NCBI GenBank assembly: GCA_963924555.1
Contig: OZ004587.1
Coordinates: 3,844,001-3,908,000, forward strand
Direction of reading: 5' to 3'
Length of the DNA stretch: 64,000 nucleotides
Source of the DNA: Crambe crambe
Lineage: Eukaryota > Porifera > Demospongiae > Poecilosclerida > Crambeidae
This document shows positions 34,065 through 62,298 of the stretch, in pieces. The first letter of the stretch is position 1. Each line of letters opens with the position of its first letter. Under the pieces are notes generated by a model. The model was not told the origin of the DNA. It saw only the letters and a program-made list of their open reading frames with translations, and did no database searches. The translations under genes were made by a program, and so were the position numbers.

Positions 34065-34100
34065 GGCAGATATATCAGATTAATCTGGCCCTGAATCATC
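34065..34100. promoter_or_regulatory. Divergent start-codon interval, viperin and Ub-ART gene
   Basis: Only 36 bp separate the first in-frame viperin ATG (34064, minus) from the ATG of the ubiquitin-ART gene (34101, plus); it is 108 bp if viperin starts at 33992. Promoter elements must therefore overlap one of the coding or leader regions, and the two genes are probably co-expressed. No specific interferon-type element was identified. Confidence 0.55.
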
Positions 34101-40623: not shown

Positions 40624-41490
40624 CGCCAGCTGCTTACTTTGTGGTCATTTTTGGAGGGCGGGGCTCGCCCCACTGTTTCACCTCAATCTCCAAAGGTAAG
40701 CTGCAATCACAATACTGTAGTATTATTTCCCTTCTCATGTCATCACTAAATACTTTATATAAGTTGCAGTTAGCTACAGACGCTTGAGCATGCAGTTTTT
40801 AATATCATAGCAGCTGCTAAATTTCTTTTGATATTTCAAGACTATAGCTAGCTATAATTCATTGGCATAAAACTGTTTTATATGGTCAAATGGTGCACAT
40901 CTAGAGAAGGTGATGCAATCTCCAAACTATAGCTAGTATACCTGATGAATAAAAACAATGCTCTGAATATGGTCAATGTAGAGGAAAAACAATCGACTGA
41001 AGGAAATCTTTATACTAGCAATAAAAGGTTGCTAGGCTGCTCCAGTTATTAATATTTACACCATTAGCTTTTTATTTATGCTTCAGCAGTAGAAATGGGT
41101 ATTATAAAGTAATAGGAATGGGAATCAGACTTCGTGTAACATGCTATGAATAATAATAAGTTATATAATGTGTATGTAATATTATAGCATGCTATGAATA
41201 TACTGGCATTCTTGTATTACCTTACTGTATGTGGAGACTTTGATCAGGTGCAAGAGTTTACCAGACGTATCTTATTTGAGATTGCTTTTTGCCTTCCACT
41301 TCTAATGGCCTTTTATAATATAAAAGTGGTTTATCATCATAGCTATGTCTCATTGTCTATTTCCATGGGTCAACTGAGCAATGTTTAGCAAGCTCACTTA
41401 TTATAGTAATGGTAGTTAGGAATGGTCCTTGCTTTAAATCAACTATAATTGATTCCTGTTTGAAAGGTAATGATGAACTTATACTTTTAG
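40624..41490. other. A/T-rich stretch before the DEATH-GTPase gene, nothing certain
   Basis: This stretch should contain the promoter or further 5' exons of the large plus-strand gene. An open frame at 41194-41388 (starting MNILAFLYYLTVCGDFD) has no recognised domain. No TATA element could be assigned. Confidence 0.4.
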
Positions 41491-41500
41491 GTGTGAGGGG

Positions 41501-41711
41501 ATGATCAGGTCTGAACTGGTGCAGTTGTGGAAGTCTCGGGTCCAGTACCTGAGGCAATATTATTGCTTCAATGGCCATAGACCAAAGCAGAGAGGCTACC
41601 CTGTCCTTTCCCGCCATGTCTGGTTCATCCCTTTCATTTTGACTGCATGGTGGTTGTTGATAGCTGTCATCTTTTTATACAAGCTCAAAATGCAGGATTT
41701 ATTAAACAACG
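41501..41711 (+). CDS. Exon: N-terminal signal-anchor segment of the 2A gene
   Basis: It begins with ATG ([17 protein letters not shown]), then a Lys/Arg-rich cytosolic-type segment, then a hydrophobic helix and [12 protein letters not shown] at the donor (AACG|GTGAGA, phase 1). Positive charges before the helix favour N-inside topology, which would put the SRCR piece outside the cell. An acceptor-like TTTTAG at 41485-41490 precedes it, so an upstream exon may exist. No SRCR or DEATH sequence occurs in this exon. Confidence 0.5.
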
Positions 41712-44700
41712 GTGAGAATTAATCATTATTAATTTTTTAGGAATAATTATATAAAGTGCAATGGGTGTAAATTGTTAATTGAATGAAGTTGGTAGAATTA
41801 CCTTTAAATATACACTTTGAATGCTTTGCTCATCGAACCATAATTATACTGAATGAGCATACAGAAATAAATGAAGATCAGTCATGAAATAACTATAACT
41901 GAACGTAATGAAAGACCATGTGGCTAGATTGATAGTATTTGAGCCAGCTAGTGGAGCAAGTGAGCTGACTCTCAAGTCAAAATTGTAGAATGCTATATCA
42001 CTAATCTATAAAGCCATTTTACTTATTATGCAACCCATACATATCCTAGTTGTGAATGAGTGCAGTTATAAACGGGATAACTACTGTACAAGTTGATATG
42101 AATCTGATTGTCGTAAGTGATCCGTCAAAGAAGAAGAAGAAGAAGAAGAAGATGATGATGAATTAATCATAGGTTTAGATGGTGGCTGGTGCCGATTGTT
42201 TATGCTATTCTGGAGGAGTTTGAGCGGACATCATCATCTTCTGCATTGTTTTCCAGATCTAAGCAGTTTAGTTAAGCCTGTAGCAAGAATAGAGAGAGTC
42301 TAGTTTGTATTGTTCTAATGAGAGAAGCCACACCCATTCCAGACTAACCCTACATAGAGAGTGCTACCACACCTCTGATATTGTTTTTTTTAAACATGTT
42401 GACATTACTTGCCTTCTTGCCTTGGTTTCTGCTTGGTGATTATTTTTGTTGGTGTGTTGAACGTGCAATTATAATTATTGCCATCACATTTGGTATCATA
42501 ATTAACTGAGCATATAATTATTATAGTTCAATGATGTGCGTGTGTTTAAGTATGTGCACACATAGCTGTTATGAGATCTACAAGAACTAGTATAATATAC
42601 AAAGCCCAGTACTACCAAATGAATATTGTACATTCCCATATGAATATATTTGAGCAGACACTTGAGGTCAAAGTCATTGACGCACACATCTTTAAGGTCC
42701 AGGAATAGCAGTTTCTTTTCTTAAAATATCAATGTCCATTCTACTTTATCTTCAGATATATTTGGTGCAGAAATTTTTTTTATAAAAATCGAATGTACAG
42801 CTGCTGTCTGCAAATTGGGCTATATCATAGACTGTTCGACGATAGTTTAATGTCTTTTCTTTGGAAGATGGTGCAGAGAAATGATCCTTATAGGCCCCTT
42901 GACCTTTCTTGTTTTCACCTTTTAACTTTGTGTAATAGAACATCCAGGACGTATCATCTCTACGAAGAGTGAAGTCTTTCACCTCAGTTGTAGTACTAAC
43001 ACTACTGTTATAAGTACCACCAGTACTCACTCCACCAGGTTTACTGAAAATTGCTTTGCCATTAATAGTCCAGCCATGAACAGATGTGTATGTGGTTGTA
43101 TTGTTGTCTGCTCGTGTTGTATCAGGTTCACTCTCTCTTGTCCACTCAATGCTAGGAAATTGTTGTTCTTTAGGTTTGTTTCCAGTGTAGAAATAGACTG
43201 GCATGGAGTTATTAAAGAAGCCTTTAGCTGTAGCAGTATCATTTCCCATTCCTTCACCTTCTTCTGCTGAATTGCTCATTATAGCGCTTACTTTAATACG
43301 GATGAGTTTGTTATGCCTTGTAGCCACAAGTGTAGCAATGACTTTACAATAACTATTGAGGGAGATAGCTATCTCTTCTTCCAAGATCTTGCCATATTTC
43401 TTCCCGTCAAGTAGTGTAAGAGTAATGAAAACACAATAATTATTATCTGGAGCTTTCTTCCACTATCATAATAATTATGCTTTTAGTGTGCCTCCCAAAA
43501 ATAGCTACTTAGCATAGCATCGTATCTTGGTGGAGTTTACCTAAATGAACTGTCTCTACAAAGATTGCCATTATTATAGTCTTTGCTTGTAAAGAAAATG
43601 AGCGATTATGTCCTGTTTTGGTGGCAGGTACGTAGCAATGTAGCTATGATGTTGCATTAAATCACTTCCTGTGTAAAGCTATATAAACTTAACTAGCTAG
43701 CTATAGCTAGTAAAATATGAAATATTAAAAGTACATTCTTGTGGTTGCTTGCAATTGATATGTGCAAAATAATTCTTATGTTAGTTACCCTATTAAACTT
43801 TGATGCCATTACTTTAGGTTGCACAGAAAGTGATTTCAGACTTGTAAATGGAACTGGTACTGAGGGTGGTGTGGAGATATATCTCAATGGAACTGTGTGT
43901 GACCAGATGTGGAGTGACACTGATGCCAGTGTGGTCTGCAAGCAACTAGGAATGTCATCTACAGGTAGTACTAAGTAGCAACAACCTAAAACCTAAATGC
44001 TTGAGAAGTGATCATGTCCATATTTTGATATTGTAGTGCATGCAAATTATTAGTTTATGCATTACTGTTGCTGTACTATAAATTCTTTCCATGATTTTGG
44101 ACACAAGACAATTGAATATGCTTGAAATAAAAATAGAAATTCACATTAACTATTAAACATGTACAGCCTTTGAAATCTGAATATTGAAATAACATGTAGA
44201 TCTATCTCATTTTCATCCTACAATTATTGTTATTAACTATTGTTATATGAGCATACAAATAAAGTTAAGTATGGTTGGCCTGGTTATAATAATGTACTAC
44301 AGCCTTGTATGAAAATAATCCTGACCTGTAATGTAGGGATTATTTTCATACGTTTAAACTTACGACTCAGCCAGTTAGTTGGTGAGAAAGTAACTAATAG
44401 TAGGCAAGTTAACGATTGTCTGAGAAAGTGCTGGGGGCACTAAAACCAATCAGCAAAAGTAGAGGGTACATCAAGACGTTTGAAAAGACAGCAAATGAGA
44501 GGTATAGAACGGGCAAGTCAACAGTTGTGAGAAAGCAGAAAGAACAGTGAGAGCAGAGAAGTTAACGATTGTTTTTACCAGGTAGCAAGTAAACCAACAT
44601 GAAGGCCATAAATAACAAAAAACAACAACAACAAGCTCATGATTTTATGATCATCTAAAAAAGCAGCAAGAATAAAGGCACTAGGCTGTCACGTGAAATA

Positions 44701-47700
44701 TCTTAGTAAGCTAGCTATGTATGCATAAAGAAATTAAAATGGCATCACTCTAGCCTATGTTTTCTGAGCAATGATTTGGAAATAGGATATGACTTATAAT
44801 TTTGATAGTAAATACATAGTCAAGAAGTTAGCATTGAGGTGGGAACATAAAACTTTAGAGTGCTATGAACGTTATAATACTATTATTTTTATTATTATTA
44901 TTTTGAGTAGAATTGAAACACTGCATTTAGCATATAAAACCTCTTTTTTTATAGGTGATATCACAAGATACTTGCTTGCTTTGAACTTCCTGCTGGTATT
45001 GTTGTGGTGGAAGCTTGCCATAACTGAATCTAAAGGAACACTCAAACCTCACCTGTATAAAGTTCCCTGTCACTCGTGTCCCATGTTCACCAATCACAGG
45101 CTTCAATATAGCTGCACTACTGCATACAACAATGCTTCCATACCTCTTTGTGACGACTGGAAGTGGTATAGAAGAAGAAGATCACTTTTCACTATCCACT
45201 ATTCTGACCTTCAAGTGTTGGCACCATTAACATTATTATTGTGTGGTGATGTTGAAACTAATCCTGGTCCTGGTGAGTATGTTACTTTAGATTCAGTGTG
45301 TATTCAAGCAAGTGTCAGTTAGAATTATATATACACAGTATGTGGGGCAATTAATATACCCACAGGAAATGGTAATTAATAGTATTCATGATGATGATGG
45401 TCACACATGGCTAACCTGATAGTTACTGTATGTCATAATGCTAGTAATTATGTAGGCTACATATAACCTATGTGGTATTCTGGATTCATAAATTAGTGAG
45501 TGAGTGTAGCAATCAAGCTGACTCTCAGGTCATGACTTATTAACACTCAGTGCATGTGCAATTAAGGGTTATAGTACTCAGTTGGTGTGTGTGTCTGTTA
45601 CATCCACTACGCAGCCAGTAGTGATTAGAGCGCTTCAATTTCGGCATTAACAATGTCTAGATGACGCTCTTCAGTGTTTAAATTGAGCCGATTTTCGGAT
45701 AAAGGCTTTATTCCTGAAAGAAGGTAAGATTCGCCACCTATGTACACATGCGCTCAATAATGCATGCTTGTCGACCATTACCTACAGGTGAGCTCTGTGT
45801 CTGTGGTGACATAAGATACTCATTCATGAATGTTATGATTTATACACTGTGTAGTATTTAATTTTCGAGGGATTTATATTTCACGAATAATTTTGTGAAA
45901 GGAGAGCAGAATAAGAAGGGTGCGGCCAGCTATCTAGTCTCATGATGAACGTGACTGTGGAGAGGCATAGCCTGTTTTATCTAGCTACTCTGAATACAGC
46001 TTAGCTACTTCTAGCTCATAGCTAGCTAGCTAGGGGATTGAACTCTGACAGAGGTCCGCTGAGGTTGAGACGTAATAAACTTGCTTGAAGAATGGAGCAC
46101 CATCATGAATCATGAACTAGCTGAATTATTTTGCTAGTTAGATGATCGTGTCGGAAACCATAGATGATGGATGGCAGGGGAAGAGGGCAGGACAGGCCTG
46201 GCCTGGAGTGCAAAGACTGACTGATAGGTATCTTTATTGCTGGCATTAGTGAAATTAGATTCCGTGAAAAGAAAATTTGAGCCGATTCACGAAATATGAA
46301 TTCCTCGAAAATTAAGTGCTATATGGTACATAGAGTACTATATAATCATGATGGGTGGAGTTTCGTACTGATATTATGAATCCTAGATACGTCCAATGTA
46401 GCCAAAGTAAGTTAAGGATAGCAATGCTTCAGATAACCATAGTTAGTGATTAGTACTTAATTAAAAAGCTGCCTTAGTGCTTCCACTTCACTCTGATCTC
46501 TGAAACTTGTTAGTATACTGGGACTAATATGTATGTAGCTACAGCCTTGGGACTAATATGCATGTAGCTACAGCCTTGGGATTAATATGCATGTAGCTAC
46601 AGCCTTGGGACTAATATGCATGTAGCTACAGCCTTGGGACTAATATGCATGTAGCTACAGCCTTGGGATTAATATGCATGTAGCTACAACCTTGGGACTA
46701 ATATGCATGTAGCTACAGCCTTGGGATTAATATGCATGTAGCTACAGCTTTGGGACTAATATGCATGTAGCTACAGCCTTGGGACTAATATGCATGTAGC
46801 TACAGCCTTGGGACTAATATGCATGTAGCTACAGCCTTGGGACTAATATGCATGTAGCTACAACCTTGGGACTAATATGCATGTAGCTACAGCCTTGGGA
46901 CTAATATGTATGTAGCTACAGCCTTGGGACTAATATGCATGTAGCTACAGCCTTGGGACTAATATGCATGTAGCTACAGCCTTGGGATTAATATGCATGT
47001 AGCTACAGCTTTGGGACTAATATGCATGTAGCTACAGCCTTGGGATTAATATGCATGTAGCTACAACCTTGGGACTAATATGCATGTAGCTACAGCCTTG
47101 GGACTAATATGCATGTAGCTACAGCCTTGGGACTAATATGCATGTAGCTACAGCCTTGGGACTAATATGTATGTAGCTACAGCCTTGGGACTAATATGCA
47201 TGTAGCTACAGCCTTGGGACTAATATGTATGTAGCTACAGCCTTGGGACTAATATGTATGTAGCTACAGCCTTGGGACTAATATGCATGTAGCTACAGCC
47301 TTGGGACTAATATGTATGTAGCTACAGCCTTGGGATTAATATGCATGTAGCTACAGCTTTGGGACTAATATGCATGTAGCTACAGCCTTGGGATTAATAT
47401 GCATGTAGCTACAACCTTGGGACTAATATGCATGTAGCTACAGCCTTGGGACTAATATGCATGTAGCTACAGCCTTGGGACTAATATGCATGTAGCTACA
47501 GCCTTGGGACTAATATGCATGTAGCTACAGCCTTGGGATTAATATGCATGTAGCTACAGCTTTGGGACTAATATGCATGTAGCTACAGCCTTGGGATTAA
47601 TATGCATGTAGCTACAACCTTGGGACTAATATGCATGTAGCTACAGCCTTGGGATTAATATGCATGTAGCTACAGCCTTGGGACTAATATGCATGTAGCT

Positions 47701-50700
47701 ACAGCCTTGGGATTAATATGCATGTAGCTACAGCCTTGGGATTAATATGCATGTAGCTACAGCTTTGGGACTAATATGCATGTAGCTACAGCCTTGGGAT
47801 TAATATGCATGTAGCTACAACCTTGGGACTAATATGCATGTAGCTACAGCCTTGGGATTAATATGCATGTAGCTACAGCTTTGGGACTAATATGCATGTA
47901 GCTACAGCCTTGGGACTAATATGCATGTAGCTACAGCCTTGGGACTAATATGCATGTAGCTACAGCCTTGGGACTAATATGCATGTAGCTACAACCTTGG
48001 GACTAATATGCATGTAGCTACAGCCTTGGGACTAATATGTATGTAGCTACAGCCTTGGGACTAATATGCATGTAGCTACAGCCTTGGGACTAATATACAT
48101 GTAGCTACAGCCTTGGGATTAATATGCATGTAGCTACAGCTTTGGGACTAATATGCATGTAGCTACAGCCTTGGGATTAATATGCATGTAGCTACAACCT
48201 TGGGACTAATATGCATGTAGCTACAGCCTTGGGACTAATATGCATGTAGCTACAGCCTTGGGACTAATATGCATGTAGCTACAGCCTTGGGACTAATATG
48301 TATGTAGCTACAGCCTTGGGACTAATATGCATGTAGCTACAGCCTTGGGACTAATATGTATGTAGCTACAGCCTTGGGACTAATATGTATGTAGCTACAG
48401 CCTTGGGACTAATATGCATGTAGCTACAGCCTTGGGACTAATATGTATGTAGCTACAGCCTTGGGATTAATATGCATGTAGCTACAGCTTTGGGACTAAT
48501 ATGCATGTAGCTACAGCCTTGGGATTAATATGCATGTAGCTACAACCTTGGGACTAATATGCATGTAGCTACAGCCTTGGGACTAATATGCATGTAGCTA
48601 CAGCCTTGGGACTAATATGCATGTAGCTACAGCCTTGGGACTAATATGCATGTAGCTACAGCCTTGGGATTAATATGCATGTAGCTACAGCTTTGGGACT
48701 AATATGCATGTAGCTACAGCCTTGGGATTAATATGCATGTAGCTACAACCTTGGGACTAATATGCATGTAGCTACAGCCTTGGGATTAATATGCATGTAG
48801 CTACAGCCTTGGGACTAATATGCATGTAGCTACAGCCTTGGGATTAATATGCATGTAGCTACAGCCTTGGGATTAATATGCATGTAGCTACAGCTTTGGG
48901 ACTAATATGCATGTAGCTACAGCCTTGGGATTAATATGCATGTAGCTACAACCTTGGGACTAATATGCATGTAGCTACAGCCTTGGGATTAATATGCATG
49001 TAGCTACAGCCTTGGGACTAATATGCATGTAGCTACAGCCTTGGGATTAATATGCATGTAGCTACAGCCTTGGGACTAATATGCATGTAGCTACAGCCTT
49101 GGGACTAATATGCATGTAGCTACAGCCTTGGGATTAATATGCATGTAGCTACAACCTTGGGACTAATATGCATGTAGCTACAGCCTTGGGATTAATATGC
49201 ATGTAGCTACAGCCTGTTTGCTCGAAACGTTTAAATCTGTTAGTATGAGTTGAGCAAGTTTGAGTATGAGCAAATAAGTTCCAGTGAATTGGAGTAAACC
49301 TGAGTATTATGTTATTGGTATCCAATGAAATAAATCTTGTGGTAGCTGCACTCATGAGACATGACACTTTGGTATCTGATCTACAGTACCATAAATTTAA
49401 TTGTTAAATTTTTGTGGTGTGTTCAACAATTATTAACCCTGCACAGCAAAAAGCAACATAAGAAAGGTATATTTTTGTGGCCACATAATGGCTATACAGC
49501 TTAGTGCCATACATTAATATGGCATGACATGGCAGTGTTGGCCCAACTGCAGGGAGGGACAATATAGAACCTGAGAACTGAATATTATTATTTTAACACT
49601 CGTGCACTGTATATCATGATTTATTACTATGTACCCAATGTTGGGAATATTTCTAGGCCTAGAAGCCTACCAGACCTACAAATAACTGCTGTAGAATTCA
49701 ATTAAGCTTGCCTATCATCTGGCCTAAAACATTACTAGGCTAGTCTGTGCATGTGTAGACAAGGCATTGATAATGTCATTGATGTAAAATAATTGAAAAT
49801 TAAAACCTCCAGATCTACAGAAAAAGGAACATGTGTGACAAGCTGGTTCCATGGTTGCATGTGGAGAGGTATCCTCTGCTAGCAATCAAGTAATTGTTTG
49901 ACGATGCTTTAAGTTTATTTCTATATTTCATGAATATAGCCTCTGAATTACTAAATAGGTGGTCACTGTAGCTATAGAAGACTGTCATAACTAAGTACAT
50001 ATGTTGTAGTGAATCTTTTGAAGCCAATAATCATTATAATAATGGATGGTATTAAAAAAAAGCCTTCCCCCATTTTATTATTATTATTTTTCATCTGTTA
50101 ACAAGCCTTTCTCTGAACTGCTACTGTCACAAAACTTTGACCTTAACTATACTGTAAATCAAGAAATTTTCCTGTAAAATATCTTCGCGTTTTATTTTTT
50201 CGATGTGTTTATTATTCATTTTTCGAGCCACCTGTGAATTATTTATCCAGCTGGAGAAAAATTGTGGCAGGTGCACAGAGTTCCAGATCACTTACTGTGT
50301 TCGTGGCTATGTGTACCAGATGCCAGTCTAGGTTAAATGCATATAATAGAGTGTGAGGGAGCCAACAAATAAAAAGGACAGGTATGCGGTAGAAGTGAAG
50401 AAATCGGGAATGATTGTAGGACATGCAAAGAAATATCTCAAACTAACTCTGCCTCCACTTCAGAATTTGCTTGAGCAATAGCCCAAGAAGGAACAGTGTC
50501 AGACAAAGATCCGTTGGGATTTGAAAGACCATTCTTCTGCTTCAAATACTTGAGAGACATGACTACGCAATGTGCTTCCTACCGTATATTTAATAGCTAA
50601 TCCGTTATAGAAAATATTTCACATGTTTAATTTTTGTTGTTTGAGCCAACCATGAATTATTTTTAACAGTGAAAATTTCCCGATTTACAGTAGATTGCCA

Positions 50701-51827
50701 TTTGCCTTGTCAGTAGCTCTAAAGGAATCTTGTAATGGCAAGAATCTTTTTAATCACATATTCAAGTGCAGCTTGATAGGCAGTCAATGATTTACAACTC
50801 ATACGTATTTGTTGCCTCATCATCCAGCTTAGGTTCACCACTTGATGTGATATTAATAGGGTTAAGAATAAAAGGTTAAGCCTGTGGTTGCTACTGTAGC
50901 CAGCATGAGGTAAGGGAGGCAAGTGCCTCTTCTGATTGCGACCTTTATAATAGTACCAGGGATTTTTTTAGTGTGCATAAATTGAGTCCCAAAATCCATT
51001 TTCCCCAAAATTGCCATTTTGTGTACAATGTGGTCAGTCATATGACAGGTAAAGGGATCAAGCACAACAAAAATTGTGTTGTAGCCATTAGACTCAAACT
51101 CTGAAGTGACAGTTAGTATGCACTGAATTATCTAATGTGTGACCTTGAAAGTGCAGGCCAAAATGGATGTGTCATGTATACATAGACTGTTCTTTCTTTG
51201 ATTGTAGTCTTAGATGATTGCTAAGGCTGTAGCAACCACATTAGCACTTAGTTAAGTTAGTCCATACATGTTCCGGTAATTATACTATTTTAGAGCAGAA
51301 ATAAGTTGTCAAAGAAGAAATAGACATGGCTAAGTAAGTAGGCATGGTCAAATGTGCACCATTTTAGCTTGGGAAGGGTTTATAATCCACTCAACCCCAC
51401 CCCACCCCTAGATCCAGCCCTGGTGTCGCCAGCCCAGCTTTTCTTCTTTTTTGGGGGAGGGGGTCTGGTGGCTCTAGCTGTGCGCAGCTATAGCTGCATG
51501 CCAATCAGATTGCTCTATTCAGTCATGTGAAGTAGTATTAATGTTGGCGAGACACACCCACGATTTATTCCAGGTTGGCAGAGCTAGAGCTATGGAGAAG
51601 TGACCAAGAGCTGTGTTTAAAGAGCTAGGAATACCTGGCCTGAAGCCTGAACGGCTGGAAGTTGTATCAGCGATTTTCAAGGGCGATGTGTTTGCAGAGT
51701 GGCTTCGGAAAATTATTCAACATGCATGTATATTGCTATTTAAATTATTTTTGAGAGAGCGTGCGGGCATCACAAGTAGTTGATGCTAGAGCTCCCAGAC
51801 CACTTTTCTTCCCCCTCCCCCTCCCTT

Positions 51828-51866
<39 letters not shown>

Positions 51867-54800
51867 AAAAAAAAAAGCTGGGTTGGTGATGCCAGACTAC
51901 CCTGAGTACTGTAGACACACTCTGTTACCTAAATGGTCCTGTGTAGCTACCACAACCATAATTATGTTGAGAAATCTAGCTGCATTTCTGGCTACAACCC
52001 TGTAGTTATGTGGCTCAGATGACTACTATCATGGTTACTTCCTGAGATAAACCCTGCCCATGCCACAATTAGTTGTAAGAGCCACACTGGTCCTTGTGAT
52101 TGTCATGGTCTATGTGGGTAGGTCTCAGGTGGTATGTATCTTAATTGTGTGGGTAGGTCTCAGGTGGTGTCTTAATTTAGCCTCGTCCCCAGGCTCTCGT
52201 ACATGCACGGAAGGGGGGAGGGGAAGAAAGAGAGCCTGGTACACAGTGATCATAAATTTCATCACGTGCAACTTCTGCTGCCTGGCGCGTTATCTAATTA
52301 TGATGCGCAATGATGCTTCAATGTGCTACAATTAGAAATGGATTAACCATCAGGGGAGAAACTACCAGTACAGCGCAGCTCTTGGAAGCATCAAGTTGGT
52401 TATACTGGTGTTCCATCACAAAAGGGAGGATTTTATAATATAGGCTCTTCCCAAAGCCAGTAGGAATAGCTATGCTGCTTCCTTCGTAAACGGCTCTGAT
52501 AGACAGATGCTGCTCATCCTTCAGGAGAAATCGTTCCAAGTCTGTCTCTTCAAACTAGCACTGCTACTAGCACTAGGAACACTAGACACTCCATTGTAGA
52601 CATTATGAATCAATGACATCATTTATATATACGTAGAATGAACCGAAGAATTATGGAAGAATACAAATTCACAGATTTCTGTGAAAAACCTGAGCATGCG
52701 CAGTCAGTGTGTACCAGGCTCTCTTTCTTCCCCTCCCCCCTTCCATGCGTGCGCGAGAGCCTAGGGACGAGGCTAGTCTTAATTGTGATGGTCTATGTGG
52801 GTAGGTCTCAGGTGGTATCTTAATTGTGATGGTCTATGTGGGTAGGTTTCAGGTGGTATCTCAATTGTGATGGTCTATGTGGGTAGGTCTCAGGTGGTGT
52901 CTTAACTGTGATGGTCTATGATGAGGGTAGGTCTCAGGTGGTGTCTTAATTGGTGGTCAATGATACATGATAGCTATATATGTGGGTATGTCCCTGGTGT
53001 TATCTTAATTAGTGTGTCATAGTATAGGTGTGTCATAATGTTTTATTTCCAGCTCCTCCCCTCAGTGTGGAGAATGTAATGGCAGACCTAAAGACACTTT
53101 CATGGGATTACGTTGGTGACTACCTGCGTGTCCCTTCCTCCAAACTTAATGCTATTAAATCAGAAAACTCCACAGATAGACAAAGACTGGCAGCTGTTGT
53201 CCGATACTGGATCCTGAGGGACCCATATGCCTCCTGGAGGAGGCTTATACGTGAGCTTGACTGCATTAGCGAGTGGCATGATGTAGCAGACAGGATACGG
53301 GATAATGCAGAGAAACAAACAGGTCAGTGAGTGTCATTGCTCAGATCAGATTATTGTTGCCCAATGCACTGCACATACAGCAAGAAAGCCGAAACCTTGA
53401 ATTGAATTATTAACTACTAATACTATAATCACTGAAAGGACAAAGGAGGTTCTATTTCTCAGACACTGCTTTCCATGTATAGAAATGAGGAGATCGAGCA
53501 TTTAGCTATGTAGAAATGAGTGTGAGTTCACTCTCCCCCTCCCAATATCACTGAGCAGCCTAATAGTTGTGTTAGTTGCATAGCAACAGCATAAACTCCT
53601 CACCCTCCCCTCCCATATTGATTGTTTTTGTCCAGTGCCCCGCCTTCTATTAAAAACACTCCACGGTGCTTGACTAATACTGTGAATTCTGTGGGTGTGT
53701 CTTATCTGGGGTGATAGAAGTGTTTATATCCCCCAGACCCCAGCCTCACCTCTCGCAGTTTGTTAGTTGCTCTGGACACTGTGAAGAATGCAGAGACTGC
53801 CAGGGACATTGATGATAATTACTTGGAGCGTGTACTTCAGATACCATACCCTAAGTGGCAGGAAATGAGATCAGAATGTGTTGAAGAGGATGAAGAGGAC
53901 ACCTACCGTGGTAAACTGGTGCACTATTACCTTGGAACCCATCCACAAGCTAGTTGGAACCACCTGGCTGGGGAACTTCTCAGCAGGGATCAAAACAGAG
54001 CTCTCGAGAAAGTGAAGGGGAAGGTTAAAGCTGATAAAGGTAGGTGTGTGGTAGATGACATACTAAGTGAGGGAAAGAAGACTATAGTCATGTGATTGGT
54101 CTACAGTGGATCCTCCTATTAAGGACTCTTAGGTCTTTTACAGAAATTGTCAAGGGACACAAAATTTGAGTGCTGACACTGAATGTTTTCATAATAGCTC
54201 TGTGTGTAGCTATTGTTCAAGGGCATAAGCAGGAAACTTCATTGGTCCAGTTTAAGCATGCATGGCCAGTTAAAGTGACCATCAGTCAGCAGGAGGGAGC
54301 GGCTAGCATATGGAGGGCTTTAATTAATGATTTGTGTGAGCTACTCCCGCTATTAATATTGTGCAAGTGAATGACACTTGATGTTGTTGTTACTCTAGTT
54401 GACTGAAGTAATGCACACTGCATGAGCTCATACTATTTTTATTTGTTGTTGAAGGGACTCATTTTTGTTGCTTGGCTCATGTTTTATTCTTTATGTTCCC
54501 TCCCACAGACCTCTCCCTCACCCTCGCTAATCTCACTCAGCTGCTACAGGATGTGGAGAATTGGTATTTGGTGGGTGACAGTCTCAACATCCCCACTTCA
54601 GTGCTTGACAGTATTCGAATTCACTCCAGTGGGTCAGAACGTGGGAAGGCTTTGGGGGAGTGGTACCTGAACAATCACCCATGTCCATCATGGAGACATG
54701 TAGCTCGTGCTCTATATGAGCAGAGGGAGCATGGAGTGCTGGAAGTGTTGAAGAGTCACTACTTTAAAGGTGAGTCTTGTGGTCTGTAATGGTTTCTGGA

Positions 54801-57800
54801 ACTGTAGCATCATTACATGTGAGCCTCATCTCCTCTCTCTCAGTATCCTGACCTGCAGTGGTTCCAACAGTGATAATCACTAGTTGAGAGTGTACATTGA
54901 TTGCATGGGGAGGGGCATTAGGTTCAATGGGGAAATGTAGATTGAATGTCTGTATGAATATTTGCCCCACCTCCAACATGAACCCTCCCACCCCCATTGT
55001 TTTATTATACCAACGGTGAAATAGACAAATTTATTTTCTGATGAATTGATAGCAGCCCAATCATTTATCAGTGAGTCAAGGCTTGGAGGTCAAGGATACA
55101 CTGAAATAGAGTCTACCGGTAGATGGACTAAAATCCTAGAGTTCGAGTAGTCTATGATCTTAGCTAGCTGAGTAATATTGAATAATTGGATATCAAATAC
55201 ATGCGCATGTGTATTATAAAAAATGGCTTCCAATAATTAAGTTAGTCGAGTGCTGTGCTCCATACTGTCTCCTTTTTACATTGACTCTTTTGAGGATTGA
55301 CGAGTACAAAAGATCGTAGTTGGAGATGATTTATCCACAAATCATAGCTGTAGCTTGAGTAGTTTGAGAGATATGGTTATCTAAGAATATCAATAATACT
55401 AATAATAATGATAACTATTATATACGTGGATTCAAGCAATCTGATTGGTCCGTTACCGTTGGCAGGTATTATTCAACGCCTTGTCTATGCATGTGCAGAT
55501 TAATAGCCTAGTAATGTTTTTGGCTGACATTTCTGAAGATGATAGGCAAGCTTTAATTGAATTGGTTTATCAAAGTGCATTGGCTTATCTTAGTTGCTTG
55601 TAGGTCTGGTGGGCTGATAGGCTTATCTAAGTGCTTTGTAGTAAGTATTACAGGTTCACATTACATGGCATATGTAGCCACCTGGCTGGAACCAACAGTA
55701 GGATCCACTTATATATATAATAAAATGCTTATTGCACGCTCCTTTGTTGAATATCAGATTTATTACTACCCTCAGTTGGGCATATTTCACTCGGCCTACG
55801 GCCTCGTGAAATATTCCCACCTTGGGTAGTAATAAATCATGATATTCAACGCAGTGTGCAATAAGTAGAAGAATCCAGCGATTTACCTGCTTGCCGTATC
55901 CTGAAACGGTAAGCTTCCTGGTCCTGAAACTTGGTCTGCACATTGTAGTAGGCTCTAGTAGGCTGGATAATCACCCACAGAGGCTTTTGTTAAGTCTATG
56001 TGGGGGAACTAGAATTTCACTTTTGGCTTGCATCTCAAGAAACTTCTGTCCCTGCATACACATAGAAGAATGAACTCTTGCATTCATGCATACATACATA
56101 ATAAAGAGAGAGAGAGAAAAAAGACTAGGAACAAGTACATTTCTGTGAAATGAAAAAAATGTAGGGATAACCATTACTCAAAAAAGTAAGGAAACAAGGG
56201 TGGGGAGTGGAAATGGGATCAATCTTTGTTCTGTATATCCAGCCAACAATCCCTACATATATCTGAAGCTACCCAATGTATATGTATGGATATACAAAAC
56301 AAAGATTGATCCCATTTCCACTCCCTACCCTTGTTTCCTTACTTTTTTGAGCAATGATCATCCCTACATTCATTTTATGATGAGAACTCATAGCTAGCTG
56401 GAGGGTTTTTAGTTGCTCTAGACAAGCTTTATGCAGCTATTAGCTAGCTGCTACTGTCTTACTTGATCATATCTGTGCAGTTCTCCAACTTCCATTTTTA
56501 CATGCAGGCACTGATGGCAATTCAAAATGAGAATCTGGTATGGACACTAGCTACTCAACAATAATCCACCATCTTGGGTGTATTGAATTGAGTTATGCTT
56601 CATTACTATGTAGCATTTGGATGATCATGCACATACCACCAGCAATGAGAAAGTTACTTTAGGATCAAAAGGGTTTCATACAGAGGTTGGGATTCCCCCG
56701 GCTTGAGTTTTCCCACCTCAGAAATCTCTATTAGAGGTCACTTGAAAATTTGCTTATAGTAATGTACAATGGTTGTGATGCAAAGTATGGGGAGGAAGAG
56801 TGTCTGATAAAGTGCTAACTGAAAAATGTGGGAGCTGATATCCAGGAGATTTTGTAGTATCTTAGTACTTTCTGCCAGTGCTAAATTACTAGTCATAAAA
56901 GAGGTTCACGATTCAAGGGAACAAATCCATGTAGAATGTCCGTCTTATTGGCTTAGTGAAAGTATACTGAGTGGCAGATTACCAATAAGCTTTAAGAATG
57001 ATAATAGCTATAGCTATTGATAATATTTCTACAGCTGATTATTTATTGTGCACTAGTTAATTTATGAGTTAATTGTTCCAAAGGATTAAATAAAATTGTC
57101 AATTTGATGTATAGATAATTATTTTTGTTTATTTGGACTGTCAGTGCAAAATTATGAACTTGCTTCATGCGTATGCATCTGAGAGAAACCATTGTCCATT
57201 AATTTTGTGCAAATATTCTCATTTTTTTCTTTCGTCATCAGGACCAACAATTTTCTTCTCCTTCCATTTAACAAGGTCATTGCATGAAACTCTTAGGCTT
57301 TGCTGATAAATAACCTCAGGTGCAAATCAATAAACACTATACACCACTCAAAAACAACTGGAATCCTTCTTCATACTGGGAGCCCATAGTAGTATAAGTG
57401 TTTTTTTATCCAAGCAGAGAGATTTACATTGTCCGCCTATAAAGATAGAAAACTTTGTTCCTTCTAGAGATTTGTTACATGGGCACTTCACGTCAAGCAT
57501 AGAGGTTTCCATGGCAAGAACTATGAATGATATACCATCAGAAGTTGAAGTAATCCTTATTCACAACTAGCTCGCACTCTTCTAATTGCACATTCTAATG
57601 ATCCATTAGAGGTTGTCAAAAAATCCTTCAACTTGTTCACAACACCACATTGTTGACTAATTCTTAAATTTGTACAGAATTTCAAATAAAAGATTTTTTT
57701 GGGTTTGTATGTGCTGCTGATATCCTCTTTCACTTATTGGGACGACAAGCGCTATTCTCGAATTGACCGTGCTAAGCAGAAATTTGGAGGATCCTACACT

Positions 57801-60800
57801 ACAGAAAAAGTTTTGAGGATGTTATGACCTTTTGGCGTATGCTAGTAATTTTGATCACCAGCACTCTCTTTACAAGTTTTTCATAGCTTTACTTATGTGA
57901 CTTTGCCTGCTGTATGTAATCTCACCTAAATTGTAGTCTAGTTGATTCCTTGAGTTTCTACTTCATGATTACTAACTTTGTATCTGTGGCAGCACTGGTC
58001 CCCCTCTGAGGGGAGAGAGGGAAGAATCAGGAGAGGAGGAAGACTGTGAGAGGGGCATGTTTCACCTTATTCTAGTATACTTTACCAGTTCATGCAGTGA
58101 GTTAATAGTAGCTGTAAGTTGTTTGAATGCTCAGAATGAATTGACAAATGTTTGCCATGAAAAAGCTCCTCTTGCTACCAGGTAAAGTTTCTACACCTGT
58201 TCAAGATTTAATGAATACTTGAAAGTTATTAACTTACATAGCTCGAGGAACCTTTAGTTGCAGGTAGCCACTGACATGGTAGAGAAGTGCAGGATATTTC
58301 ACAATTACAAGCATACATTAGTATAAAAGCTCTCCCACATGATTACAAACTTCAGACAATCCAGCCATGCATTCAATTTAACAGCAACCATGTATAGAGT
58401 AACCAACTTCTTTGTGATGATTTAATTTCATACCTCTAAATTTCACTAATAATATGTCCATTGGTTGAACCATAATTATTGGTAGTGTTGGCCGGAAGTA
58501 GAGAGATATTGTTGTTGTTGACAGTGGTCATCACTTGGACTAATGCAGCCATGTTTGTATCACCTTCATACTCTCTGTGCACTTCCACATATGGATTGAT
58601 GACATTGTCGATGTACTGGATCATCAAATGTTTAGATGAGTGTGTCACAAGACAGTCAGGTGGGAAATAAAAATTAGGGTGGCAGCGAAAGATTTCTCTG
58701 GAGCTCATAGTTACCAAACTGGTATTTGGCATCTGCTTGGCCCATGGACCGTGAAGATTCTAAGAAAGTGGAAATCACTGGCATGAATGACAAGCATCAT
58801 TTCTTTCTGTGATTTACTTACTGGTGATTTCTTGCCTATTTATAAGGCAAGACAATAATATCTAGAAAATACTCCTGCTAGTTGTGCTTGCCCTTTGATT
58901 TATGATAAGCTCAAATCCTACTCAAGAATGTGACCCCAAAATTCAAATGATTTTTGCGACATCAGGATGCTGTGATTACACCCTAAATAAATGCTCTATA
59001 ATTATATCCTCAAAGGAGACAATGTCCACATTTCTTTAATTGTATGGCAGTCATGCACTTCGACATCTGAATCAACCTTTCTCTTCATCTAACTCTTTAC
59101 CAAACTTGCATGAAAAAGATCTATAGCTGCTGAGATGCCATGCTGACTAATAGCTACTAGTTGGAAGATGAGGGATATACCTAGAGATAATATACAATTT
59201 TTATTATAAACTTATGATGCTGTGTATATGGACCACGTTTCTTTAACACTGTCAGAGGCATTGTCTGCTTTCACTTCTTAAAGTATAGTTTCATATGATG
59301 TGCTGCAAGATGGTGTATTTTTTTATCCTATACACTACACCCCCTTCAAATATTCAAGACCTAAAATTATTATTCACAGACTTGTAGTAGACGTTTGATA
59401 TTGCTAGCACTGCTTTTACGGCCTTAATTGCTTCATTTGAGTGATGGGTATTCACTAGGGAGGTATGGTTTCAAAATTATTAGTCAGAATACCAAAATGA
59501 TCTTGGAGTTCATCTCTTGGTTTGAAATATCCACAGTGATATGGTGAGAAAAAAAAATACTTAAGTGAGTTACAAAGCCAAGTGCCCATTGCAATGCTGA
59601 ACACGTGTTTAATATTCCTCTGAATATTGCAGTGTGAAATATTCCAGAAACACGAAAATACTTTAACGAAAAAAATTATAGTATGATATATACACAAGAA
59701 CTCCTAAGAATGTCAATGAGGAGAATTAATGTTTTAGAAACTGTAAATAACTCTATGTGTAATATACACTATCTAGCTAGCTCTTTCAAATCATTTTTAG
59801 CACTGATAGTAATTATATTGTATTTTGACCTGTAGGTTCCTCTGAGTCACGTCGACTGTATAATGAGGCCATGAAGCAGGGACATATCAAGTCACAAATT
59901 AACAAAGTCCTCCTCTATGGGGCTCCAGGAACTGGTAAATCCAGCTCCATGGACCTCTTCATTGGTAACCCTCCACGCCAAGTGAGAATAAGCACCCCTC
60001 TAGCAGCTCGTCCAATCGCAATGCTTCATGTGGGAGTCACCACTGAGGAGTGGAAAAAGCTTTCTCCAAAAGAACGGAAAAAAAATTTAGCTAGGGCCAT
60101 TCATGCTCAGCTTCATGCCAACGACTCAGACTCGGGAGGGGAATCTGTCTCTGGTCAGGCATCAGGTGATGATTCTGATTCTGGTGAACTGTTAATCGAA
60201 AGGGAAACTGATACTCATAGTAAAGAATATAAGTCATCCACACATGATGAAAATTCAACACCAACTAGAAAACTGAAAAAAGGTTCTGTACCAGAGGAAA
60301 AGTTCTCACTGCCATCCATTAGCACACATGAGGAACTAATGGAACTATTGGACGAGATCTCTGATTTAGATGAACCTTCACCTGTCTTCCGTAAGGTCAA
60401 TTTGATTGATTCTGGGGGACAACCACAATTTCATGAGGTGCTACCTGTATTTCTTCGTCGCATGTCCCTCTACATATTTGTATTCAAGCTGTCAGAAGAG
60501 CTCGCCACCAAACCCATGGTGGAGTATTTCGGTGAAGATGGGGAACGAGTGGGAACCCCTTACCAATCAGCTCAGTCCAACGAGCAGCTGTTGAAGCACT
60601 GCCTTCGCACTTTGCACACCCACAGATCATCTCCCGATACTAAAGGTGAGTGCTCCAAAATCATGATTGTGGGGACCCACAGGGATGAAGAACACCTGTG
60701 CATCACCGAAACACAAGAGGAGAAGAACAAGAAGTTAGCAGAGCTGTTGCTTCCGATGTTCCAAGATGAAGTCATCTACTACAACCTGCCAGAAAATAAG

Positions 60801-62298
60801 TTGATCTTTCCAGTCAATGCCAAAAATCCTGAAAAGTTTGATAAAGATACAGCTAGAGAGATCCAAAGTGTAGTCCTAACACAGTGTATGCCTGATCCCA
60901 TTGATGTGCCTCTTCAGTACTTCTCTTTGGAAATTGTCCTTGAAGAAGTCAGCCTTTCTCTAGATAGAGGTATATTGAGCAAACAAGAATGCCTTAAAGC
61001 AGCAGATAAGCTTTACTTTGATGAGCATACACTTGGTGCAGCTCTTCAGTTTCTTGATGAAATTTCGGCAGTCTTCTATTTCCCTGAGGTTCTGGAGGGT
61101 GTTGTATTCACTAACCCTCAAGTCCTCTTGGACAAGGTAACTGAGTTAGTAGAGAAGATCTTCTGCTTGAGACAAAAGGTTGGTGGTGAAAAAAATCATG
61201 CACTTTCTGGACGCTGGCAGAAGTTTAAAGATCATGGAATTGTTAGTTTAGAGCTTCTGCAAGAGAAAGGGTTTAAAAAACATTATGTGCCTGATATCTT
61301 TACTCCTGTTGATCTTGTCAAGCTCTTTAGAAAGCTACTCATCATAGCTGACTTTAGTGCTTCTGAGTACATCATGCCTGCCCTCCTTCCTGTCCTCGAG
61401 ACTGAGAAAGTTCATGAGTATCGTGTGACCAGTAGCTCTCCTGTAGCTCCCCTTGCTCTGGCTTTCCCTCTTGGAGCTCCTCGTCTCGGTACTTACTGCA
61501 GTCTCACAAGCTTCCTAGTCTCTCCTGACAACGAGTTTCCTTGTCCTTGGAAGATAATGCTACTGCCTCGTTCCAACACTCCAGCTTGTCTCAATCGAAA
61601 CTGCATCCTATTTTCGATACCTGGCTACCCTGGCTCTGTTTCGCTGATTGACACGTTCACTCACTTTGAAGTGCATGTGGACACAGCCCAGACCAGCTGT
61701 AGCAAGCTGTGTTCTTTAGTCTCCCAAGCCATAATGTCAGGTCTGAAGAAAGTGACTGTGGTCCTTAGCTACAACAACTCCATTCCATCGAAAGCAGTGC
61801 TCTGTCCATGTGGGGGTGAAGATCCGCACATTGCCACTTTTGGAGATGGAGACCGAGTCTGGATCTGCAGTCAGAATAGCAAGGTATTTGGAGAGCTGAC
61901 TCCTAAACATAAGTTGTGGTGTGATCAAGTGGATCATTCTTCAGCTAAAGGTAAAGGTACTAATGGATCCTCTTTTATGACATACAAAAATGATTTGTTG
62001 TACAGTTACAGCATCACTGGATTTGAAGAGTGTGCGCAGAGCTCTGTGGGATGCCAGATGCAAGTGGTATGATATCGGTGTGGAGCTGAACTTGGATACA
62101 GCAACTCTAGACACAATTGATGCTAACTTCCATGGAAAGGTTGAAGACTGCTTCCGAGAAGTTCTCTCAAAGTGGCTCAATGTCACTTCACCTGATCCCT
62201 CATGGGAAGCACTGGTGGAGGCCCTCAGGTCTCCTGCAGTGGAACACCCTGAAATTGCTGCCAAGATTGAGAGCAAGTATATTGTAGAAGAACACTAG
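41501..62298 (+). CDS. SRCR-2A-DEATH(x3)-Roc/COR-DEATH gene, eight exons, single 1305-codon frame
   Basis: Exons 41501-41711, 43818-43964, 44955-45272, 53053-53322, 53737-54039, 54509-54769, 59836-61950 and 62006-62298. Every intron is GT-AG and in phase 1, and the total (3918 nt) is divisible by three with one terminal stop. Order: N-terminal membrane anchor ([20 protein letters not shown]), the first half of an SRCR domain ([24 protein letters not shown]), a second hydrophobic stretch ([14 protein letters not shown]), a 2A motif, three DEATH-like domains, a P-loop GTPase of Roc type with a COR-like region, and a terminal DEATH-like domain. Skipping at 2A would give a 224-residue membrane protein and a 1081-residue cytosolic protein. 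The DEATH/GTPase half is firm. The first three exons are joined on phase and spacing only, and a first exon upstream of 41501 is possible. AATAAA lies at 62405. Confidence 0.65.
42752..43384 (-). CDS. Unrecognised intronless ORF nested in intron 1 of the 2A gene
   Basis: 210 codons on the strand opposite the host. Possible later starts exist ([10 protein letters not shown] at codon 36). It is Ser/Thr/Asn/Lys-rich with aromatic blocks ([30 protein letters not shown]). It has no signal peptide, membrane helix or motif I can name. Length, even composition and conserved-looking aromatic spacing argue for a real or recently real gene. It could equally be the coding part of a decayed mobile element. 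Confidence 0.45.
   Translation of the reverse strand: MEEEIAISLNSYCKVIATLVATRHNKLIRIKVSAIMSNSAEEGEGMGNDTATAKGFFNNSMPVYFYTGNKPKEQQFPSIEWTRESEPDTTRADNNTTTYTSVHGWTINGKAIFSKPGGVSTGGTYNSSVSTTTEVKDFTLRRDDTSWMFYYTKLKGENKKGQGAYKDHFSAPSSKEKTLNYRRTVYDIAQFADSSCTFDFYKKNFCTKYI
43818..43964 (+). CDS. Exon: N-terminal half of an SRCR domain
   Basis: It encodes about 49 residues with the SRCR pattern: [20 protein letters not shown], then [20 protein letters not shown], ending SSTG at the donor (ACAG|GTAGTA, phase 1). SRCR domains bind microbial or endogenous ligands in many animal receptors and are abundant in sponges. The second half of the domain (two or more further cysteines) was not found downstream. 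Reading upstream of the acceptor gives a signal-peptide-like run ([20 protein letters not shown]), so an alternative first exon starting at 43763 is possible. Confidence 0.65.
44955..45272 (+). CDS. Exon: second hydrophobic segment, Cys-rich stretch and 2A motif
   Basis: It encodes [19 protein letters not shown], a Cys-containing region ([27 protein letters not shown]), a basic KWYRRRRS patch, then the hydrophobic lead-in APLTLLLC and GDVETNPGP. Donor CCTG|GTGAGT, phase 1. The open frame also extends left of the acceptor to 44789, so an unspliced start there is an alternative. Confidence 0.7.
45248..45271 (+). promoter_or_regulatory. 2A (StopGo) translational recoding motif
   Basis: Codons GAT GTT GAA ACT AAT CCT GGT CCT give DVETNPGP, a full match to the D-V/I-E-x-N-P-G-P consensus, preceded by Gly and the Leu-rich stretch that active 2A sequences usually have. 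Known mechanism: the ribosome fails to link Gly to the last Pro, releases the upstream chain and continues. The downstream product would begin [10 protein letters not shown]. The motif ends one base before an exon boundary. Confidence 0.88.
45852..46321. mobile_element. MITE-like element, about 470 bp, with TTAATTTTCGAGG ends
   Basis: The left TAGTATTTAATTTTCGAGG plus TTTATATTTCACGAAT is mirrored by ATTCACGAAATATGAA and CCTCGAAAATTAAGTGCTA. No transposase. It lies in the 7.8-kb intron after the 2A exon. Confidence 0.7.
46516..49213. repeat. 29-bp satellite, about 93 copies, with higher-order structure
   Basis: The unit TTGGGACTAATATGCATGTAGCTACAGCC repeats head-to-tail without spacers. Variants are GGACT or GGATT, GCATG or GTATG, and CAGCC, CAACC or CAGCT. 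The order of variants repeats at an offset of 1131 bp (39 units): positions 46681, 46741, 46981 and 47161 match 47812, 47872, 48112 and 48292. Each unit contains the palindromes ATGCAT and GTAGCTAC. It sits inside the intron that separates the 2A exon from the first DEATH exon. Confidence 0.97.
50152..50690. mobile_element. MITE with CTGTAAATC ends and TA target site, 539 bp
   Basis: Left CTGTAAATCAAGAAATTTTC and right GAAAATTTCCCGATTTACAG are inverted repeats, both flanked by TA. No transposase frame; the open frame at 50239-50424 is unsupported. Confidence 0.8.
51424..51890. mobile_element. Inverted-repeat element with GCCAGCCCAGCTTTT ends
   Basis: Left GTCGCCAGCCCAGCTTTT is mirrored by AAAAGCTGGGTTGGTGATG. 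Inside, GGGGGTCTGGTGGCTCTAG is mirrored by CTAGAGCTCCCAGACCAC. A long C run followed by an A run lies near the right arm. Related single ends occur at about 27747 (GTCGCCAGCCCAGCTTTTC) and about 63755 (GGGTCTGGTGACTCTAGC). Confidence 0.75.
52181..52772. mobile_element. Non-autonomous element with about 75-bp inverted repeats and a captured helicase piece
   Basis: Left CCTCGTCCCCAGGCTCTCG through GGGAGGGGAAGAAAGAGAGCC is mirrored on the right by GGCTCTCTTTCTTCCCC through CGAGAGCCTAGGGACGAGG. The ends match the short hairpin at 28155-28340. The interior carries a minus-strand helicase fragment. Confidence 0.88.
52318..52539 (-). pseudogene. RecQ-like helicase fragment inside the element
   Basis: 73 codons: [19 protein letters not shown], then a Walker A-like [17 protein letters not shown], then [11 protein letters not shown], the motif I and Ia region of a RecQ/DEAD-type helicase. 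Nothing past motif Ia is present, so it cannot be a working helicase. Such fragments recur in repetitive DNA of several animals; capture by the element is inferred. Confidence 0.7.
53053..54769 (+). CDS. Exons: three tandem DEATH-like domains
   Basis: Each exon (53053-53322, 53737-54039, 54509-54769) encodes one domain of about 85-100 residues with the same pattern: a short Pro-containing lead, a hydrophobic helix, [15 protein letters not shown] or WYLVGDSL, then P.S.L..I, and a later W....P.ASW..L..EL or PCPSW. This is the DEATH-fold pattern common in sponge proteins. All are phase 1-1, so any may be skipped or duplicated without breaking frame. The first begins PPLSVENV directly after the 2A Pro-Ala. 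They probably recruit other DEATH proteins in immune or cell-death signalling, which is inference from fold. Confidence 0.8.
55728..55867. mobile_element. Palindromic hairpin element, about 140 bp
   Basis: GCTTATTGCAC with TTGAATATCAGATTTATTACTA on the left is mirrored by TAGTAATAAATCATGATATTC and GTGCAATAAGT on the right. The centre carries ATTTCACTCGGCC/GGCCTCGTGAAAT. The whole reads as one stem. Confidence 0.85.
56160..56368. mobile_element. Hairpin MITE with about 80-bp arms
   Basis: Left TGTAGGGATAACCATTACTC, AAAAAAGTAAGGAAACAAGG and GAGTGGAAATGGGATCAATC are mirrored on the right from GATTGATCCCATTTCCACTC to ATCCCTACA. Arms are about 95% identical, which suggests recent activity. Confidence 0.9.
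58436..58732 (-). pseudogene. DDE-type (pogo/jerky-like) transposase fragment
   Basis: 98 codons: [20 protein letters not shown], then [18 protein letters not shown]. This resembles the segment before the third catalytic region of pogo/CENP-B-like DDE transposases, where a CHP..FP...H.TH block and Y....I.PYV are typical. No other domain parts are open nearby. It may be the remnant of an autonomous relative of the local TA-target MITEs. Confidence 0.5.
59836..61950 (+). CDS. Exon: Roc/Ras-like GTPase with COR-like region
   Basis: A single 705-codon exon. Counting from the Met at 59871: P-loop GAPGTGKS at 17-24; an unusually long acidic, Ser-rich insertion (about 80-130); switch [12 protein letters not shown] around 178-187; [18 protein letters not shown]; a G4-like GTHRDE at about 268-273 in place of NKxD; then PVNAKN as a SAK-like G5. 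From about 345 a COR-like helical/winged region follows ([44 protein letters not shown]). The rest (to about 690) is Leu-rich, mixed alpha/beta, with VLSYNN; no further domain named. Roc-COR with DEATH recalls DAPK1 and other Roco proteins, but without a kinase here. Confidence 0.82.
62006..62298 (+). CDS. Exon: C-terminal DEATH-like domain and stop
   Basis: [20 protein letters not shown], then [27 protein letters not shown] and [15 protein letters not shown] are close to the consensus DEATH pattern of sponge proteins. The frame joins in phase 1 to the GTPase exon (AAAG|GTAAAG to TACAG|TTACAG); a second donor 6 bp downstream would add two residues. Stop at 62296-62298, AATAAA at 62405-62410. 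Confidence 0.87.

Follow-up and report, generated by a model that had tools for sequence, protein, structure and literature searches.

An open frame joining a putative two-pass membrane leader, a 2A motif and a predicted DEATH-Roco GTPase in Crambe crambe

In a 64,000-nucleotide stretch of Crambe crambe DNA (contig OZ004587.1, positions 3,844,001 to 3,908,000 of the forward strand; hereafter the window), eight exons lying between positions 41501 and 62298 join into 3918 nt, giving a single open frame of 1305 codons plus a stop. The frame runs from a leader with two hydrophobic stretches, through a 2A motif, to DEATH-like domains and a predicted Roc-COR GTPase. With somewhat better than even confidence, we read these exons as one gene in which a two-pass membrane leader is ended by the 2A element and followed by a DEATH-Roco protein, with the 2A setting the ratio of free to tethered product. 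The parts of the candidate gene are as follows.

41501..41711, plus strand: exon 1, basic N-terminal tail and first membrane helix (residues 40-58)
43818..43964, plus strand: exon 2, half SRCR domain, phase 1-1
44955..45272, plus strand: exon 3, second membrane helix, basic tail and, at its extreme end, the 2A motif, then a phase-1 donor
45248..45271, plus strand: DVETNPGP core of the 2A element
46519..49215, no strand: 29-bp minisatellite within intron 3, about 93 copies, 95% match
53053..53322, plus strand: exon 4, DEATH-like domain, collinear counterpart on C11
53737..54039, plus strand: exon 5, DEATH-like domain, related by profile to exons 4 and 6, weak fold match to FADD
54509..54769, plus strand: exon 6, DEATH-like domain, related by profile to exons 4 and 5, collinear counterpart on C11
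59836..61950, plus strand: exon 7, predicted Roc-COR GTPase module (AlphaFold model, Foldseek matches, kept GTPase motifs)
62006..62298, plus strand: exon 8, C-terminal DEATH domain and stop

All seven introns in the joined frame are GT-AG and all are in phase 1, which bears out the initial annotation's claim of one frame of 1305 codons across eight exons. Along the joined protein, a first helix is followed by the half SRCR, a second helix, [13 protein letters not shown]-like exons, the Roc-COR GTPase and a DEATH domain. Its hydrophobic stretches cover residues 40-58 and 125-143, and the basic tail after the second helix ends in [14 protein letters not shown], with NPGP at residues 222-225. 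We consider it likely, judging from sequence, that exons 1-8 form one gene with one transcript and that its 2A element works, because the leader forms a genomic module, the motif is kept among copies, leaders of this family head Roc-COR genes and a NACHT gene, and the exon order recurs on C11. In the window and in the paralogs inspected, an acceptor-like AG lies 1-19 bases 5′ of the exon 1 ATG (41475-41500 in the window), mostly in one phase as judged by eye. This suggests a further 5′ exon, which we regard as likely; the true start of the gene may lie further 5′ than the exon 1 ATG.

The 2A motif is common in this genome. Searched as a DNA pattern, D[VI]ExNPGP occurred at 208 sites (91 + 117) in 143 Mb; the reversed control gave none, and on these counts chance occurrence was rejected. 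A genome search with exon 3 returned 81 matches; dropping the 13 weaker ones left 68 copies. Of these, 67 retain D[VI]ExNPGP without interruption (59 by coordinate match and eight of the remaining nine by reading). Among the nine copies read, the core changes were V to I and T to I, both within the published StopGo consensus, (D/G/C/N)(V/I)ExNPGP in the accessible sections of the source (PMC12846837). The hexapeptide TLLLCG precedes the D of the window's core and, compared by eye, resembles the L-rich StopGo classes; an L-rich stretch ending in CG before the D marks an active class in those sections (PMC12846837). Thus, the 2A-type signal annotated between the membrane part and the DEATH-Roco part stands: DVETNPGP is in frame, and both the core and the upstream hexapeptide fit StopGo.

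The motif is also kept among protein relatives. A profile search of public protein collections found 72 exon-level relatives, 71 of them with the motif, in a procedure that selects candidates by short exact words and so favors motif bearers. When the window and 49 of the 72 relatives were aligned, mean column identity was 25% and the invariant columns were G D E N P G P of the 2A. Since the one relative without the motif is left out of this alignment, and since the word step favors motif bearers, conservation among the relatives is biased upward. Two distant relatives match this genome over their length at 48% and 43% at best, and we therefore took them to come from other genomes. Within the genome, constraint was stronger on exon 1 (median omega 0.23; 35 pairs, 9 copies) than on exon 3 (0.41; 14 copies).

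Elsewhere, the listed 2A sites included other arrays: DVESNPGP on C9, DVELNPGP on C1, C5 and C6, and DIEVNPGP on C8. On C5, between 9.01 and 9.05 Mb, four death-domain matches begin 110-114 bp after a 2A site; as 150 of 965 candidates were scored in the death-domain genome search, its counts are lower bounds.

Exon 1 and the 2A exon travel together. Exon 1 lay upstream of the 2A exon, on the same strand and within 20 kb, in 67 of the 68 copies, at spacings from 82 bp to 15.6 kb. Because of this near-constant pairing, we treat exons 1 and 3 as a module. Conversely, exon 1 had 71 genome matches; two fragments were left out, and two of the 69 used were without an adjoining 2A exon. Leaders that lack the SRCR exon are the rule.

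The same module stands ahead of Roc-COR genes at other loci. On C11, positions 2267906-2301500 carry exon 1, SRCR, the 2A exon, a DEATH-like exon, exons 4, 5 and 6 and the start of exon 7, in the order of the window. By eye, the only other recognisable open reading frame (ORF) in this C11 stretch was transposase-like and on the opposite strand; no family search was run there. C11 carries 11 SRCR leaders, one of them with a split motif, and each is followed on the same strand by exon 7 at a distance of about 21-30 kb. More broadly, a leader lies no more than 40 kb upstream of 21 of the 64 scored Roc-COR (exon 7) copies, on the same strand and with no intervening exon 7; 12 of these leaders, the window's included, are of the SRCR type. 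None of the 64 has an opposite-strand leader within 40 kb. The exon 7 search scored 64 of 517 candidates, making these counts lower bounds. A further arrangement was seen on C10 and C5, where eight SRCR-less leaders have exon 7 behind them, at about 6 kb in seven cases and 9.9 kb in one. The SRCR-2A-DEATH/Roco order first noticed in the window is thus found at other loci.

Other genes headed by DEATH also carry the leader module in front of them. We fetched 20 loci around 2A motifs, and in 18 of them a DEATH-like exon lies downstream. Matches to a DEATH-like profile fell on 26 of 163 ORFs downstream of the 2A, on 4 of 176 upstream and on none of the 350 opposite-strand ORFs; part of the profile's training set came from the same ORFs, which flatters its E-values, and the placement of the matches serves as the control. 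With Pfam, 5 of 20 frames downstream of the 2A matched Death at E 0.01 or better, none above cut-off. Farther downstream at these loci we found NACHT (L024, L026), NACHT with LRR (L020), Roc (L018), COR (L028, below cut-off) and, by eye, ankyrin-like repeats (L015). The window's own leader family heads L018, L028 and the NACHT gene L026, and other 2A-ending leaders head L015, L020 and L024.

The SRCR part of the initial annotation fared less well. Pfam SRCR matched the joined protein above cut-off (E 1.3e-6), at profile positions 7-44 of 100 only, and inspection of the region's ORFs by eye showed no second half. Of the 68 leaders, 16 have the half-SRCR exon, placed between exon 1 and the 2A exon. 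It is stop-free in all 16 and evolves near neutrality (pooled pN/pS 0.79, median omega 0.81; 14 of the 16 copies), in a selection test whose power is low (pooled pS 0.038). The VVC cysteine is typical of SRCR domains; it is changed to VVY in 10 of 14 copies and retained in the window. In the genome search for SRCR, 150 of 1477 candidates were scored, and of the 150 matches 16 were used, the others being other SRCR genes. Searching proteins with residues 1-228 gave ten matches, all vertebrate SRCR-type proteins, with 17-23% of the query covered. Since the half SRCR is near neutral, in contrast to the strong constraint on exon 1 and the moderate constraint on exon 3, the 'SRCR receptor' is the least supported part of what had been proposed, and we rejected it as the core of the finding. 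We read the half SRCR as a loop insert, not a receptor. A large array of SRCR half-exons lies on C20 (5.27-5.80 Mb), with up to 75% identity to window exon 2, and is a possible donor of that exon.

Downstream of the 2A, Pfam detected Death in two stretches of the joined protein (E 1.7e-7, 31.7 bits against a cut-off of 22.6), the best of which is exon 8. Taken singly, exon 4 (E 0.0021) and the exon 8 reading frame (E 0.00028) matched Death below cut-off, and exons 5 and 6 gave no Pfam Death match. Profile searches of the PDB with exons 4, 5 and 6 retrieved no death domain. Profile comparison related exon 5 to exon 6 (E 1.7e-15) and to exon 4 (E 3.2e-5), and exon 6 to exon 4 also. A weak structure model of exon 5 had as its top seven matches chains that contain death domains, FADD among them, all at E 0.6 or worse.

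For exon 7, the structural evidence is stronger than the Pfam Roc match to the joined protein, which was below cut-off (E 0.0031). An AlphaFold model built with 48 sequences reached a pLDDT of 80.9; against the PDB, Foldseek matched it best to LRRK1 (E 4.1e-15) and also to LRRK2 and a bacterial Roco, with a Roco RocCOR tandem at E 9.7e-13. The P-loop, DSGGQ and THxD positions are invariant or at least 90% kept among the 48 sequences. On the model, exon 7 is a Roc-COR GTPase. Pfam found no NACHT, kinase or LRR in the joined window protein.

From charge and hydropathy, we infer that the leader is a two-pass hairpin with both ends in the cytosol. Net charge in the window is +7 for the N-tail, -4 for the loop and +3 for the C-tail; the corresponding values in six paralogs, computed without any SRCR, are +6 to +7, 0 or -1 (loops of 13-14 residues) and +1 to +6. 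Two NGT sequons, at residues 81 and 94, lie within the loop. The mRNA would then encode a cytosolic N-tail, a helix, a luminal loop (here with the half SRCR), a second helix, a cytosolic tail and the 2A, followed by a cytosolic protein of three DEATH-like domains, Roc-COR and DEATH. Most ribosomes would skip at the 2A, releasing a 224-residue membrane protein that ends in NPG, and would continue to make a free DEATH-Roco protein beginning with Pro. The remaining ribosomes would read through and produce a tethered form; with two membrane crossings in the leader, the DEATH-Roco part of this form would still face the cytosol. The balance between free and tethered signalling protein would in this way be set by the 2A.

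Several observations weigh against this reading. The topology is a prediction from charge and hydropathy, and one more N-glycosylation sequon, the third, lies at residue 179 in the tail predicted to be cytosolic. Two copies of the leader are damaged: L036, on C11, is split by an insertion directly before the 2A motif, and C8:730556, one of the 59 coordinate-matched copies, is a partial 2A exon with an internal stop codon. No nearby leader of the window's family accompanies 43 of the 64 scored Roc-COR copies, which implies that DEATH-Roco genes exist without the leader or start otherwise. These include the C15 copies, which are leaderless and, of those scored, the closest to the window in exon 7 (up to 92% identity); the 9.7 kb upstream of one C15 copy holds a relative of exon 6 and no leader. 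Finally, L022 has a DEATH-like exon behind its 2A that the window lacks; in the window, the 2A exon is separated from exon 4 by a 7.8-kb intron holding the minisatellite.

The window copy is itself a mosaic. Between 41.4 and 50.1 kb, pieces of it align with the SRCR-type paralogs L022 and L012, and between 50.97 and 54.4 kb with L021 and L011, whose leaders have no SRCR; the minisatellite falls in a stretch absent from L022. The SRCR-2A leader and the DEATH-Roco part may then be neighbours only, the leader having been left behind by a gene that lost its body and exons 4-8 forming a separate gene with its own start. The mosaic, the lost DEATH exon, the minisatellite-bearing intron and an in-frame ATG ten codons into exon 4, where translation could begin behind an untranslated exon, are the best grounds for two genes, and the leaderless majority of Roc-COR copies also fits. 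However, C11 keeps SRCR-2A, DEATH and exons 4, 5, 6 and 7 in a row and all its SRCR leaders have exon 7 downstream, the eight SRCR-less leaders on C10 and C5 stand 6-9.9 kb ahead of exon 7, and exon 4 starts with a phase-1 acceptor that fits exon 3, the joined frame being fully open. Loss of an L022-type DEATH exon would keep the frame, since the exons are in phase 1. We regard separate genes as unlikely.

We judge equally improbable a second possibility, in which the exons do form one gene and the leader is thrown away. Skipping would be nearly complete, the stub would dock translation at the endoplasmic reticulum or be degraded, and only the free DEATH-Roco protein would matter. In reticulocyte lysate, four StopGo motif classes showed efficiencies from about 93% to almost 100% (PMC12846837, accessible sections), as such a leader would need, but the low omega of exon 1 points to stronger constraint than would be expected for a disposable signal.

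There is still less to recommend a leader that acts as a signal sequence and sends the unskipped product into the secretory pathway, as described for N-terminal 2A signal sequences of S. purpuratus NLRs in the available part of that study (PMC4981915). Only a luminal tail would make the sequon at residue 179 usable. Against this, 221 residues and two helices precede NPGP, and the charge pattern predicts a cytosolic tail. That the motif is an inactive relic, for example of retrotransposon origin (2A elements are known in non-LTR retrotransposons; PMC4981915, available part), is very improbable given that 67 of 68 copies are uninterrupted and that 71 of 72 relatives carry the motif, the latter in a search that favors motif bearers.

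The window also holds other frames. Within intron 1, the minus strand holds an open frame of 236 codons (42755-43462) with no Pfam match at E 0.01. Four receptor-like frames, recognised by eye, occupy 4188-18793, and the two that were tested match 7tm_1 (E 5.2e-33 and 2.1e-37). A minus-strand frame at 33654-34079 contains [10 protein letters not shown] and has no Pfam match; we take it to resemble the start of viperin/RSAD2. It adjoins a frame with a ubiquitin domain at 34095-35096.

If active, the one-gene arrangement would be a natural system in which translational recoding decides between a free and a membrane-bound signalling protein of immune type. The leader, whose family has 67 copies with an uninterrupted motif, would then also show how a module can pass between gene classes. 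We give an even chance to the broader view that this is a general device, most likely of sponge-type animals, in which a two-pass 2A leader is joined by phase-1 exon shuffling to many DEATH-headed effectors (Roco, NLR), each mRNA yielding a stub, a free effector and a cytosol-facing tethered one. Were that so, these animals would routinely use 2A recoding to express cellular immune genes, with about 200 motif sites in one genome.

Like the Roco GTPases LRRK1, LRRK2 and bacterial Roco, the predicted product has a Roc-COR fold, and its C-terminal DEATH domain recalls DAPK1, which carries one too; it differs from them in having no kinase or LRR match in Pfam, three N-terminal DEATH-like domains and a 2A leader. 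With SRCR receptors it has the initial stretch of the domain in common (profile positions 7-44 of 100), whereas the second half was not found in the window gene and the cysteines are not retained among copies. The motif has the DVExNPGP core of the viral L-rich StopGo class and, by eye, its L-rich hexapeptide ending in CG (PMC12846837, accessible sections). Unlike that class, it lies in a multi-copy, intron-bearing gene family, and its x is T where the class is associated with S.

Lineage-specific expansions of DEATH/TRADD-N genes in Amphimedon and Crassostrea have one to three N-terminal Death-like domains and variable C-termini, and in C. virginica a constant membrane region lies ahead of the intracellular part, as reported in the portion available of PMC8195603. 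The window's family is alike in its large size, N-terminal Death-like domains and variable C-termini, and differs in that its tether ends in a 2A. In the main text of that paper, '2A-like', 'NPGP' and 'skipping' had no matches; likewise, the available part of a 2026 paper on Dysidea NLRs contains no word starting with 'ribosome'. Among the matches listed in our literature search, no title or start of an abstract concerned 2A leaders in sponges; Rao et al. 2025 (Cell Reports), on eukaryotic and viral 2A, may overlap with the present work.

The closest system is that of the sea-urchin NLRs, in which N-terminal 2A sequences divide the product between the cytosol and the secretory pathway (PMC4981915). 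In the available part of that study, the listed 2A signal sequences are 26 residues long and at the N-terminus, and others are placed only within the N-terminal region. In both systems, immune genes of the DEATH/NACHT kind carry a 2A in their N-terminal region, with two fates for the downstream part. In the sea urchin, a 26-residue N-terminal 2A serves as the signal sequence; in the window, NPGP begins at residue 222, after two helices, so that a 224-residue two-helix membrane part precedes the cut. The cargo in the window is DEATH-Roco, and the predicted place of the read-through product differs as well. The principle of an N-terminal 2A is thus already published for the sea urchin, and the present case differs in the type of leader, the predicted location of the read-through product and the Roco cargo.

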